Source of the DNA: an uncultured Prolixibacteraceae bacterium
GTDB lineage: Bacteria > Bacteroidota > Bacteroidia > Bacteroidales > Prolixibacteraceae
Length of the DNA stretch: 64,000 nt
Direction: 5' to 3'
NCBI GenBank assembly: GCA_903834475.1
Contig: CAILJH010000123.1
Coordinates: forward strand, 42,962-106,961
Shown: piece by piece, positions 3,918 to 11,101 of the stretch
Position numbering within the stretch: position 1 is the stretch's first letter
Layout: every line of letters starts with the position of its first letter
Notes under the pieces: generated by a model
The model's database searches: none
What the model was told of the DNA's origin: nothing
What the model saw: the letters and a program-made list of their open reading frames with translations, nothing else
Position numbers and translations under genes: made by a program

Positions 3918-4344
3918 AAAAAGGAAAGGGTCATTAGTCGCTCAGTATGTTGGCATAAAGTTCATAAACGAATAACTTTGAAAATGGGAAGGGCCTTGGG
4001 GTTCAGCCCTGAAAGGGTGACAGATAATAGCACAGGGCTTCGGCGTGAGCTCAGTCGAACGGCTTCGCCCTGTGTTATATGGGAAAAGGACCACATTGTC
4101 CGCGCAAAATGGTTTTCAAGGAATTAACCTTCTTTCGGACGAAACCATATTGGCCTTCAAAAAAGCAGTTACATAAGAGTAAATAGGAAAGTGGAAAAAG
4201 GAATATCAATTACCAATCGATTTACTCCCTTTTTCCTCTTTTCTTTTCCCATTTTTCGAGTGGCTATTGACTTTTTTTAAACTTTATCTCCGAACCCTTG
4301 TTATTCTGTTATTAATTTCATTTTTTTACACCAGAATTTAAAAC

Positions 4345-4404
4345 ATGATTCAAAATACAAATACAATATGGCTTCCGTGGTGGGGTCTTCTTTCTAACAA
4401 GTAA
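4345..4404 (+). CDS. Candidate trp operon leader peptide, 19 aa: MIQNTNTIWLPWWGLLSNK*
   Basis: ATG 4345, stop TAA 4402-4404; three Trp codons (4369-4371, 4378-4380, 4381-4383) in a 19-codon ORF directly upstream of an intrinsic terminator and trpE. Confidence 0.75.
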   Translation: MIQNTNTIWLPWWGLLSNK

Positions 4405-4581
4405 GAAGTAAGAGCCATATTGGTATTTTTAAACGATACTAAGGCCTGCTTCTCTTCGGATTGGCAGATTTTTAATTTAAGCTGAGTAGGATGAATGTAA
4501 TGAGAAATATTTGGTGGTGGCACAGAAACTTTACACAATACCGTGGAAGGAAGTAGCTATCATTGTTCAAATTGAACGGAA

Positions 4582-4619
4582 AAGCGGCTTATCGGAACAC
4601 GGTAAGCCGTTTTTTTTTA
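4582..4619 (+). terminator. Intrinsic terminator between leader ORF and trpE (candidate attenuator terminator)
   Basis: CGGCTTA (4585-4591) / TAAGCCG (4603-4609) stem followed by an uninterrupted T run (4610-4618). Confidence 0.8.
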
Positions 4620-4622
4620 GGG

Positions 4623-4764
4623 AAGCCCCTCTAAATCTCCCCGATGGGGAGACTTAAAGAATGTTCAATCAAGGAAAAATGAAATCAAGAATATTGAGAA
4701 TATAACGGAAAATAATCGCAATGCTTTTAAGCCTCCCCTTCTGGGGGAGGTTTTGAGGGGGCTT
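4623..4764. repeat. Pair of short G/C palindromes, A copy 4623-4655 (AAGCCCCTCTAAATCTCCCCGATGGGGAGACTT) and B copy 4729-4764 (AAGCCTCCCCTTCTGGGGGAGGTTTTGAGGGGGCTT)
   Basis: Read directly; inverted copies bracketing the segment before trpE. Confidence 0.9.
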
Positions 4765-4779
4765 AAAACCATATATCGC

Positions 4780-6189
4780 ATGAAACAAATTAATGTACAA
4801 GTCAGTGTAAAAAAGATACTTGCCGATACTTTGACCCCGGTGAGTGTTTACCTGAAATTCAGGGATTTATTCCCGAATTCAATTTTGCTCGAAAGCTCCG
4901 ATTACCATGGTCATGAAAATGCATACTCATTTATTTGCATCAAGCCTATGGCTTGCTTTACAGCCGATTCGGGCGAAATCACCATCGAATACAATGGTCG
5001 TGAGAAGCTGAGCAAAACCATTTCTCAGGAATGCAGGGTAGATCAGCAACTGGAAGCTTTTTTCAAGTCGTTTAATTTATCCGGAGAAACTGAGAACCTT
5101 CCGGCTAACGGACTTTTCGGCTACATCAGTTACGATGCTGTGAAATATTTTGAGAAGATTGAAATTGCAGCTGCCGCCAAAGAAGCCTACTCGGTTCCCG
5201 AGGTAAAATACTGTTTCTATAAATACATCGTGGCCATCGACCATCACAAAGACATGATCTACCTGATCGAAAATCTGATGGAGGGCGAAACTAAAGAAAT
5301 CGGACAAATTGAATCGTTGCTGCGGAACCTGACATTCTCCCCAACACAATTTGATACTGTAGGCGAAGAAGTTTCTAACATTACCAATGAGCAGTATAAG
5401 TATATGGTCAGTAAAGGAAAGGAACATTGTTTCCGGGGCGACGTTTTCCAGATTGTGCTTTCGCGACAGTTTTCACAGCCATTTAAAGGCGATGAGTTCA
5501 ACGTTTACCGTGCCTTGCGTTCGGTAAATCCATCACCATATTTGTTCTTTTTCGACTACGGAACATACCGGATATTTGGTTCAAGTCCTGAAGCTGAGTT
5601 GCGGATTAAGAAAGATCGCGCCATCATCAACCCAATTGCAGGTACTTTTAAACGCTCCGGAAATGATGACGAAGATCGCGTTTCAGCAGAGCGTTTGTGT
5701 GCCGACCCGAAGGAAAACGCAGAACATGTGATGCTGGTTGATCTGGCACGGAACGATTTGAGCCGCAATGCCAGCGATGTTAAGGTTGACAGCTATCGCC
5801 AGGTTCAGTACTTTTCGCATGTCATCCATTTGGTGTCCGAAGTTTCAGGTAAGCTGCCGGAGAATACCAATATGATTACCGTATTAGGCGATTCATTTCC
5901 AGCCGGAACTTTGTCCGGAGCACCAAAACATCGCGCCATGCAACTGATCGACACCTACGAAAACCAGCGTCGCAGCTATTATGGAGGTTGTATCGGTTAT
6001 CTCGGATTTGATAATTCATTGAACCATGCCATCATGATCCGTTCGTTCCTGAGTAAAGGAAATGTTCTGTTTTATCAGGCTGGTGCCGGTATCGTTGCCG
6101 ACTCAGTGGAAGAAAGTGAACTCCAGGAAGTGAACAACAAACTGGCCGCCTTGAAAAAAGCATTGGAAATTGCGAAAGAGATTAATTAA
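4780..6189 (+). CDS. trpE: Anthranilate synthase component I
   Basis: ORF 4753-6189, more likely start at ATG 4780 (MKQINVQVSVKK); chorismate-binding signature ...FQIVLSRQFS..., SSPEAELRI, GSFPAGTLSGAPKHRAMQLI. Confidence 0.95.
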   Translation: MKQINVQVSVKKILADTLTPVSVYLKFRDLFPNSILLESSDYHGHENAYSFICIKPMACFTADSGEITIEYNGREKLSKTISQECRVDQQLEAFFKSFNLSGETENLPANGLFGYISYDAVKYFEKIEIAAAAKEAYSVPEVKYCFYKYIVAIDHHKDMIYLIENLMEGETKEIGQIESLLRNLTFSPTQFDTVGEEVSNITNEQYKYMVSKGKEHCFRGDVFQIVLSRQFSQPFKGDEFNVYRALRSVNPSPYLFFFDYGTYRIFGSSPEAELRIKKDRAIINPIAGTFKRSGNDDEDRVSAERLCADPKENAEHVMLVDLARNDLSRNASDVKVDSYRQVQYFSHVIHLVSEVSGKLPENTNMITVLGDSFPAGTLSGAPKHRAMQLIDTYENQRRSYYGGCIGYLGFDNSLNHAIMIRSFLSKGNVLFYQAGAGIVADSVEESELQEVNNKLAALKKALEIAKEIN

Positions 6190-6194
6190 ATAAG

Positions 6195-6342
6195 AAGCCC
6201 CTCTAAATCTCCCCGAAGGGGAGACTTTTGGATAATGGAAGTTCAGAACATTTAAACTTTTAAATAATGAATACAAATTCAAACCCCAAAAATATGCATC
6301 CCGGTTCTTTCACTCCTCCTTCGGAGGGGAAGGGGGAGGCTT
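6195..6342. repeat. Palindrome pair: A 6195-6227, B 6311-6342
   Basis: AAGCCCCTCTAAATCTCCCCGAAGGGGAGACTT starts 5 nt after the trpE stop; CACTCCTCCTTCGGAGGGGAAGGGGGAGGCTT lies within the trpG 5' coding end. Confidence 0.9.
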
Positions 6343-6953
6343 CTATAGTAGTCATAGATAATTACGATTCGTTCACATACAACCTGGTGCATGCCATCAA
6401 AAAAATATCGGGTTTGCAGGTTGATGTTTTCCGGAACGATGAAATTGCACTGGAAGATCTGGATCAGTACGATAAAATTGTGTTGTCGCCCGGTCCCGGA
6501 ATTCCGGAGGAAGCCGGATTGTTGCTGGATATTATACGCAGATACGGACCTACCAAAAGTATGCTGGGCGTGTGTCTCGGGCATCAGGCCATAGGCGAGG
6601 CTTTTGGAGGCACACTGACCAACATGAACCGTGTTCTGCATGGTATTTCAACACCGGTTACCACAACCAAAGTTGCAAGCAGATTGTTTGATGGTTTACC
6701 TGCTACTTTTGAAGTCGGTCGCTATCATTCATGGATTGTCAACGAAACTGATCTTCCGGAATGTTTGCAGGTTACCAGCTATGACGATAAAGGCATGATC
6801 ATGTCGATGAAACACACTACTTTTGATGTTGAAGGAGTTCAGTTTCATCCTGAATCAGTCTTGACACCACTCGGCGAACAGATGATTGCAAACTGGCTGG
6901 GAAAAGCCTCCCCCAACCCCTCCGAAGGAGGGGAGTTAAAGGCTTCGAAATAA
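6267..6953 (+). CDS. trpG: Anthranilate synthase component II (glutamine amidotransferase)
   Basis: IVVIDNYDSFTYNLV, LGVCLGHQAIGEAFGG, GVQFHPESVLT; both termini carry repeat-encoded extensions (TPPSEGKGEAS and KASPNPSEGGE). Confidence 0.93.
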   Translation: MNTNSNPKNMHPGSFTPPSEGKGEASIVVIDNYDSFTYNLVHAIKKISGLQVDVFRNDEIALEDLDQYDKIVLSPGPGIPEEAGLLLDIIRRYGPTKSMLGVCLGHQAIGEAFGGTLTNMNRVLHGISTPVTTTKVASRLFDGLPATFEVGRYHSWIVNETDLPECLQVTSYDDKGMIMSMKHTTFDVEGVQFHPESVLTPLGEQMIANWLGKASPNPSEGGELKASK

Positions 6954-7017
6954 TTGTAATATATAAATGGTAACATTTTCCAATCGTTCCCCCTTCGGGG
7001 GAATATGAAGGGGGCTT
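6904..7017. repeat. Palindrome pair: A 6904-6937, B 6986-7017
   Basis: AAGCCTCCCCCAACCCCTCCGAAGGAGGGGAGTT (inside trpG 3' end) and GTTCCCCCTTCGGGGGAATATGAAGGGGGCTT just before trpD. Confidence 0.9.
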
Positions 7018-7019
7018 TT

Positions 7020-8015
7020 ATGAAAGATACATTGAACTACCTGTTTACAGGGAATAACCTAATGAAAGCTGAGGCTCACCAGATGCTGATTCGAATTGCT
7101 GAAGGGCAGTTTTCGGATAGTGAAATTGCTTCATTTCTGACTGTATTCCGGATGCGCCGGATAACTGGCGAAGAATTGGCAGGATTCAGGGAGGCATTGC
7201 TCGAGCTGTGTGTTGCCATTGACCTTTCGGAATTCAACACCATTGATGTGGTTGGTACCGGTGGCGATGGAAAAGACACTTTTAATATTTCCACTCTCAG
7301 CGCATTTGTTTTGGCCGGAGCGGGTTATAAAGTAACCAAACACGGTAATTACGGATTGTCGTCAGTGAGTGGATCATCGAACATGTTTGAGTATTTTGGG
7401 TACAAATTCAGCAGCGATCAGGGCAAGTTGCGCCGTGAAGTGGAAGATGCAGGGATTTGTTTCCTACATGCTCCGCTGTTTCATCCGGCTATGAAAAGTG
7501 TTGGTTCGGTTCGAAAAACACTAAAAGTAAAGACACTTTTCAATATGATGGGGCCAATTATCAATCCATCCTTCCCGAGAAATCAATTAGTAGGCGTGTA
7601 TGATTTGGATGTCATGGATTTATATCATCAGGTTTTCAGGGAAAGCGGACAGAATTATATCATCGTGAGTAGTCTGGATGGTTACGACGAGATATCGCTT
7701 ACCGGCGATGCCCGTTTTGTTTCGAACCTGACGGAAGATAATCTCTCTCCGGCTGATTTTGGTCTGGCGCAGGTTTCTCCGGAAGAACTTTATGGCGGTG
7801 AAACGGTTGAAGCCGCTGCAGCAATTTTCAGAAGTGTATTGGAAGGAACTGGGACAACAGCACAGCAAAATGTAGTAGTTGCCAATACTGGCCTGGGAAT
7901 TCAATGTATTAATCCGGAGAAATCGCTGGTCGATTGTGTTGCTGAAGCCTCTGAATCATTAGAATCAGGAAAGGCATTGGCTGCTTTTAAAAAATTGATG
8001 ACAATGAATAAATGA
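7020..8015 (+). CDS. trpD: Anthranilate phosphoribosyltransferase
   Basis: DVVGTGGDGKDTFNISTLSAFVLAGAGYKVTKHGNYGLSS signature; ORF-track start at 7005 lies in the repeat, so ATG 7020 preferred. Confidence 0.95.
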   Translation: MKDTLNYLFTGNNLMKAEAHQMLIRIAEGQFSDSEIASFLTVFRMRRITGEELAGFREALLELCVAIDLSEFNTIDVVGTGGDGKDTFNISTLSAFVLAGAGYKVTKHGNYGLSSVSGSSNMFEYFGYKFSSDQGKLRREVEDAGICFLHAPLFHPAMKSVGSVRKTLKVKTLFNMMGPIINPSFPRNQLVGVYDLDVMDLYHQVFRESGQNYIIVSSLDGYDEISLTGDARFVSNLTEDNLSPADFGLAQVSPEELYGGETVEAAAAIFRSVLEGTGTTAQQNVVVANTGLGIQCINPEKSLVDCVAEASESLESGKALAAFKKLMTMNK

Positions 8016-9643: not shown

Positions 9644-9689
9644 AGGAGAATATTTAAAGAGAATCAAAGTTTAATTCAATAGCCCAAAT

Positions 9690-9722
9690 CTTTCCCCCTC
9701 CGGGGGAATAAGAAGGGGGCTT
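9690..9722. repeat. Single B-orientation palindrome upstream of trpB
   Basis: CTTTCCCCCTCCGGGGGAATAAGAAGGGGGCTT. Confidence 0.85.
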
Positions 9723-9735
9723 ATATTTTAAAAAT

Positions 9736-10917
9736 ATGAGTTATCAGGTAAACGAAAAAGGTTATTATGGCGAATTCGGCGGGGCATACATCCCCGAAAT
9801 GATGGTGCCAAATATCGAAGAATTGCAACATAACTATCTCGAAATCATCAACTCGTATGATTTCAGACAGGAATTTGTTGATTTGTTGAAAAACTACGTG
9901 GGGCGGCCATCTCCCTTGTATTTTGCCAAACGGCTTTCAGAGAAATACCAAAGCAAGATTTATCTGAAGCGTGAAGATTTGAATCATACCGGTTCCCACA
10001 AAATAAACAACACGATCGGACAAATTCTGGTTGCACAAAAATTGGGTAAGCACCGCATCATTGCTGAAACTGGGGCAGGTCAGCACGGATTGGCAACTGC
10101 CACGGTTTGCGCTCTCATGGGTTTGGAATGCATTGTTTACATGGGAGCAGTTGATGTGGAGCGTCAGGCGCCGAATGTCAAAAAGATGCGGATGTTGGGA
10201 GCTGAAGTTATTCCAGCCGTCAGCGGCAACCAAACGCTGAAAGACGCTACCAACGAGGCCATGCGCGACTGGATCAACAATCCCGTGGATACGCATTACA
10301 TTATTGGTTCGGTTGTCGGTCCGCATCCGTATCCTGATATGGTAGCACGGTTTCAGTCTGTGATTTCAGAAGAGATCCGCTGGCAGCTCGAGGAGCAAAC
10401 CGGGCGCGAAAATCCCACCCGTGTGATTGCCTGCGTGGGCGGTGGAAGCAATGCTGCTGGTGCTTTCTATCATTTTTTGGATCAGGAAAATGTGGAACTG
10501 ATTGGGGTCGAAGCTGCAGGTAAAGGCATAGAAACCCACGAAACGGCAGCCACCTTGACTCTTGGAACTCCGGGAGTTTTGCACAGTTCACGTTCGATTC
10601 TGATGCAAACCAAAGATGGTCAGATTACCGAGCCCTATTCGATTTCTGCCGGATTGGATTATCCCGGAATTGGACCATTGCACGCCAATTTGTTTACCAG
10701 CAAACGTGCCAAATACCTTTGGGCAACCGATGCCGAAGTGCTTGATGCCGCTTTGGAACTGACCCGGCTGGAAGGAATTATTCCTGCATTGGAGTCTGCC
10801 CATGCTTTAGCGGCACTAAAAAAGCTTCAGCTAAAGCCAGAAGAAGTTTCAGTTATTAATCTCTCCGGAAGGGGCGACAAAGACATGGAAACATACTTAA
10901 ATCATTTTGGATATTAG
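9736..10917 (+). CDS. trpB: Tryptophan synthase beta chain
   Basis: [26 protein letters not shown] (PLP lysine), [22 protein letters not shown]. Confidence 0.97.
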
Positions 10918-11101
10918 AAGCCTCCCCTAACCCCTCCGAAGGAGGGGGATGTGAAAGCTGAGTTCTGAAGTTATTGTAAAAAAATAAAATATCGTGAATA
11001 TGTACCGCCTCAAGTCTCACCCTTCGGGGGAGATTTAGAGGGCGCTTAAACCTTAAAATATGCCATCATCCAAGTCCCCCTTCGGGGGATTTAGGGGGCT
11101 T
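10918..11101. repeat. Palindromes: A 10918-10949, B 11012-11047, B 11072-11101
   Basis: A copy starts at the base after the trpB stop; the two B copies precede trpA. Confidence 0.9.

Follow-up and report, generated by a model that had tools for sequence, protein, structure and literature searches.

The trpE leader in the window, the 64-kb stretch of DNA analysed here, most probably consists of a pair of ribosome-mediated transcription attenuators arranged in series, each of which would read charged tRNA-Trp (probability roughly 0.8). Short ORFs with Trp clusters (W/WW in ORF 1, WWW in ORF 2) are conserved across genera, an intrinsic terminator lies between ORF and gene, the window's own T1 being degenerate, and a competing antiterminator is identified for unit 1 by covariation. 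The ORFs, the terminators, their conservation, the coupled presence of ORF 1 and T1 and the covariation of the unit 1 antiterminator were all computed here. The layout is as follows:

4297..4328, + strand: candidate promoter, as predicted from CTTG (4297–4300), 20 nt and TTTTTTTA (4321–4328)
4345..4404, + strand: leader ORF 1, MIQNTNTIWLPWWGLLSNK and stop; Trp codons at 4369, 4378 and 4381 (W/WW)
4360..4427, + strand: unit 1 hairpin (1:2); outer stem AATACAATATGGCT / AGCCATATTGGTATT, inner stem CUUCUU/AAGAAG
4403..4416, + strand: unit 1 region 2, AAGAAGTAAGAGCC, the antiterminator partner; paired with region 3, it covaries across genera
4443..4473, + strand: terminator T1; region 3 GGCCTGCTTCTC (4443–4454), 3' arm, T5 (4469–4473)
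4480..4593, + strand: unit 2, Bacteroid-trp-type leader element (model R2, 41 bits, E 3e-5)
4500..4556, + strand: leader ORF 2, MRNIWWWHRNFTQYRGRK and stop; Trp codons at 4512, 4515 and 4518
4539..4545, + strand: TACCGTG, partner of CACGGTA (4598–4604) in T2
4585..4618, + strand: terminator T2; stem 4585–4594/4600–4609, T9 at 4610–4618
4780..6189, + strand: trpE, first gene of trpEGDCFBA (operon to 11892)

The gene 5' of the leader region encodes the C-terminal part of SprA. The candidate promoter is a weak fit to the Bacteroidota consensus TTTG / TAnnTTTG (quoted in PMC7366714); of 93 genomes, 23 carry the pattern TTTG-N18-21-TWNNTTT 5' of unit 1, where shuffled sequences gave 1.6. Folding of the leader beats 200 of 200 dinucleotide shuffles (z -3.8), the unit 1 hairpin contains the conserved segment UUCCGUGGUGGGGUC, and ORF 2 has an additional in-frame ATG at 4491. 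G+C-rich short repeats, themselves containing inverted repeats (AAGCCCCTCTAAATCTCCCCGATGGGGAGA and relatives), were also observed between the trp genes of the window (4622–4768, 6194–6227, 6904–6933, 6982–7021, 9687–9726 and 10917–10950).

A preliminary description of this DNA had proposed that trpE of this Bacteroidota is preceded by a ribosome-mediated Trp attenuator in which a single leader, ORF 1, governs the terminator at 4585. All of its coordinates are correct on re-check of the sequence, including those of ORF 1 with its three TGG codons, of the terminator before trpE (its stem and T9) and of the exact inverted repeat CAATATGGCT (4364–4373) / AGCCATATTG (4413–4422), which is the 1:2 hairpin of unit 1. 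Attenuation as such is retained. The single leader is not, ORF 2 (three TGG codons, 4512–4520) and a degenerate terminator at 4445–4473 having been missed. The terminator at 4585 belongs to the closer Trp leader at 4500–4556, which is why the distance between leader and terminator had looked too long.

Conservation of the leader in Prolixibacteraceae

The regions upstream of trpE in about 75 relatives exhibit two Trp-rich ORFs in constant order, with the typical peptides NTIWLPWWGLL (ORF 1) and (N/I)WWW(R/H)xNF (ORF 2). ORF 2 occurs far beyond Prolixibacteraceae, whereas ORF 1 does not. Conservation of the ORF 1 core extends to the nucleotides (AATACAATATGGCTTCCGTGGTGGGGTCTTCTT ... AGCCATATTGGTATT), and R1, a covariance model of the unit 1 core which scores the window's hairpin at 94.1 bits, matches 103 of the 141 genomes of the family; the observation, for which a comparison with relatives had been suggested as a check, is thus not due to chance. 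Outside Prolixibacteraceae, R1 gave three weak matches only (L158–L160), none of which resembles the unit 1 core. An exact-pattern scan for this core across 85,462 species genomes returned 65 records, most of them named as Prolixibacteraceae or its genera (Draconibacterium, Maribellus, Mariniphaga, Prolixibacter, Sunxiuqinia and Mangrovibacterium); a few metagenome bins labelled Chitinophaga, Odoribacter or Chlorobiota correspond to genomes placed in Prolixibacteraceae (G001, G019 and G026). Zero matches were found in the viral contigs searched.

Ninety-three genomes were classified into 78 long and 15 short forms. In all 78 long forms an ATG lies in frame 6, 7 or 9 codons 5' of the core, with a variable N-terminus, and the ORF 1 frame and its Trp codons are kept. 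T1, a hairpin between ORF 1 and ORF 2 (typically GGCCTGCTTCT...AGCAGGTTTTTT), is recognized by a hairpin-plus-U-run criterion in 76 of these 78 genomes and in 0 of the 15 without ORF 1. The two exceptions, the window and G011, both have a degenerate T1. In the window one closing G-C pair is gone (GCAGA, as opposed to GCAGG in the intact sister genome G021), a change which may be an assembly error since the assembly is 66% complete.

Three further leaders depart from this layout. One genome has a lone unit-1-like leader (MNQLITVWFWWLSCFPGKK) without unit 2 (L039, G023), another carries both units, but its first peptide, NWSWWQILLYR, has diverged (L029, G045), and a third is a diverged short form in which a hairpin-internal ATG frame with its own Trp codons continues into ORF 2 (L040, G040).

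Antiterminator of unit 1 and the proposed series

Region 3 forms the 5' arm of T1, and its pairing partner in the long forms is region 2 (AAGAAGTAAGAGCC and its variants). The energy of this 2:3 duplex averages -14.2 kcal/mol for cognate pairs and -10.2 kcal/mol between genera, and none of 2000 genus permutations was as low as the cognate mean. This covariation is the strongest structural evidence of the analysis. The effect of a ribosome was computed by masking its footprint and taking the probability that region 3 pairs into T1. The mean probability is 0.96 with no ribosome, 0.96 with a ribosome at the stop codon and 0.78 with one stalled at the last Trp codon; the corresponding values in the window are 0.76, 0.77 and 0.01. 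A stall therefore moves pairing fully to the antiterminator in the window, but only in part when averaged over the genomes. Because T1 still beats the antiterminator at equilibrium in 67 of the 78 genomes despite a stalled ribosome, the switch must depend on the order in which the RNA is synthesized.

Translation, stalling, the response to Trp and the logic of the series are proposed from this arrangement. A ribosome stalled at the TGG codons of ORF 1 would cover the 5' side of the unit 1 hairpin, leaving AAGAAGUAAGAGCC free to pair with GGCCUGCUUCU and thereby blocking T1, whereas a ribosome completing ORF 1 would cover region 2 and allow T1 to form. With no ribosome, the 1:2 hairpin would form and T1 would form too. 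Polymerase that has passed T1 would reach unit 2, whose ORF 2 would control T2 likewise through its UGGUGGUGG run, and trpE would be transcribed only when both units are read through. As read-through of both is needed, the response should steepen or widen; with T1 weakened in the window genome, unit 1 may leak there.

Another leader with two Trp units was encountered in family f7 (L047, reverse complement). Its two leader ORFs, both with WWW, lie at about -299 and -139 from trpE, and a separate terminator follows each of them. Judged from its sequence, it is an independent tandem outside Prolixibacteraceae.

Unit 2, short forms and alternative readings

Model R2, built from 12 relatives outside the window's genus, three of which pass the gathering score of RF01692 (Bacteroid-trp), matches the window across the whole element. 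At that score of 49 bits, the passing leaders are L051 (49.3), L053 (49.8) and L062 (53.0), while unit 2 of L005 reaches 31.9 bits and stays below it. The Rfam search of the window gave no match at gathering score, RF01692 and RF00513 included. By this homology, unit 2 is to be regarded as a diverged Bacteroid-trp leader. The second-best R2 match on both strands of the window is unit 1, weak (18.2 bits, E 0.41) and in register, and several relatives give the same outcome, from which we infer that unit 1 is a diverged duplicate of unit 2. RF01692 itself aligns end to end with unit 1 (4322–4450) at 23.1 bits, below 49. Two sub-threshold matches of mir-299 to T2 (26.8 and 24.3 against 67) come from its palindromic stem and were disregarded.

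T2 is present in most examples of unit 2. The TACCGTG/CACGGTA pairing pointed out in the preliminary description is kept, with the core CGTG/CACG in 74 of 86 unit-2 leaders and C:G, T:G or T:A as the next pair in 70. Permutation tests of the 2:3 pairing of unit 2 gave no covariation signal, and an antiterminator competing with T2 is weakly supported.

The 15 short forms have no in-frame ATG, GTG or TTG and no T1, and a stop codon often lies directly before the core. Their core lies about 95–100 nt from ORF 2, as opposed to at least 143 nt elsewhere. In the TrpE tree they form two separate clades, one nested among long forms (support 97/98) and the other corresponding to genus g12. The 33-nt core is 99% identical in the 12 main-type short forms, the adjoining upstream sequence 59%. 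The near-invariance of the unit 1 core seems to exceed the needs of a leader peptide plus hairpin and speaks against the tandem attenuator, and a core kept although no usual start codon would allow its translation in that frame requires some function of the RNA as such. A role of the core in short forms through base-pairing between T2 and the arms of unit 1 was considered and rejected, as g12 does not keep it. An alternative frame from an internal ATG (MASVVGSS) was likewise rejected, its length and continuation not being conserved.

The unit 1 core might instead be the sensor itself, a hairpin or three-way junction binding Trp, tRNA-Trp (perhaps uncharged) or a protein. It would act translation-free in short forms and be joined elsewhere to a leader peptide and terminator, ORF 1 and T1 being one of two ways of using it; if true, one element would be usable as an RNA switch or a ribosome switch. 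The retention of the core without start codon or T1 in two TrpE clades speaks for this reading, as do an inner stem altered on both sides in one short form (L022, CCUCCCG/CGGGAAG) and the g12 genome G033, in which the WLWWG peptide frame is broken and GGUGGGG retained. However, the outer stem barely varies and shows little covariation, unit 1 reaches the gathering score of no Rfam family, every long form retains the ORF 1 frame with its Trp codons, and no expression platform is visible adjoining the core in short forms, so that a sensor RNA appears rather unlikely.

Far less probable is that unit 1 is a functionless, decaying duplicate and that regulation is by unit 2 alone. Its resemblance to unit 2 and the degenerate T1 of the window and G011 would fit, but unit 1 is retained in 103 of 141 genomes, and its mean identity of 98–99% exceeds the 76–88% of unit 2. 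The wiring of the preliminary description, a single attenuator in which ORF 1 controls the terminator at 4585, is largely refuted and has hardly any probability left. It drew on a 10-bp complementarity with one bulge (GGCTTCCGTG / CACGGTAAGCC), namely GGCTT-CCGTG (4370) with CACGG-T-AAGCC (4598), which is lost in g12, where T2 is CACGATAAAACGC, and is therefore more likely incidental. Moreover, ORF 1 has a terminator of its own (4445–4473 in the window, clear in 76 of the 78 genomes with ORF 1) with a covarying antiterminator, and ORF 2 sits between ORF 1 and T2.

Comparison with known leaders

A single attenuator is the norm for amino acid operons. A pair in series for the same amino acid, family-wide and recurring in another family, would offer a natural setting in which to ask what a cascade adds, possibly a steeper response, a wider range or a lower leak; the open-licence PMC literature yielded no paper on serial attenuators that share one signal. 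The lineages which lack the unit 1 ORF and terminator and keep the core offer a direct test of the RNA's own role.

Bacteroid-trp (RF01692) is listed by Weinberg et al. (2010; PMC2864571) as a Bacteroidetes RNA with a candidate cis-regulatory role and is cited 5' of the trp operon of Flavobacterium psychrophilum (PMC6414381). Unit 2 fits it in its position before Bacteroidota trp genes, its AUG, its UGGUGGUGG run and its GGCUUGUC-type terminator start; however, one leader is described there, whereas here an extra unit 1 precedes. The trpB motif (RF04312; PMC11109978) also has a hairpin followed by a terminator, and some of its members lie near trp genes, but it belongs to Firmicutes and Fusobacteria, and the match of L005 (29.3 bits against 59) is a generic resemblance only. 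Neither this motif nor Trp_leader was accepted as the identity of unit 1, the matches being weak and generic. With E. coli trpL (RF00513, Trp_leader) the proposed units share the four-region logic (1:2, 2:3, 3:4) and the Trp codons in region 1, and differ in their leader sequences and in their arrangement as two units in series. The Salmonella mgtCBR leader RNA likewise has two leader ORFs, each with its own attenuator-like control, in a two-signal tandem called a singular example by its authors (PMC3641672). There, however, the signals are two (ATP and proline), whereas here Trp codons occur in both units, and both possess an intrinsic terminator.
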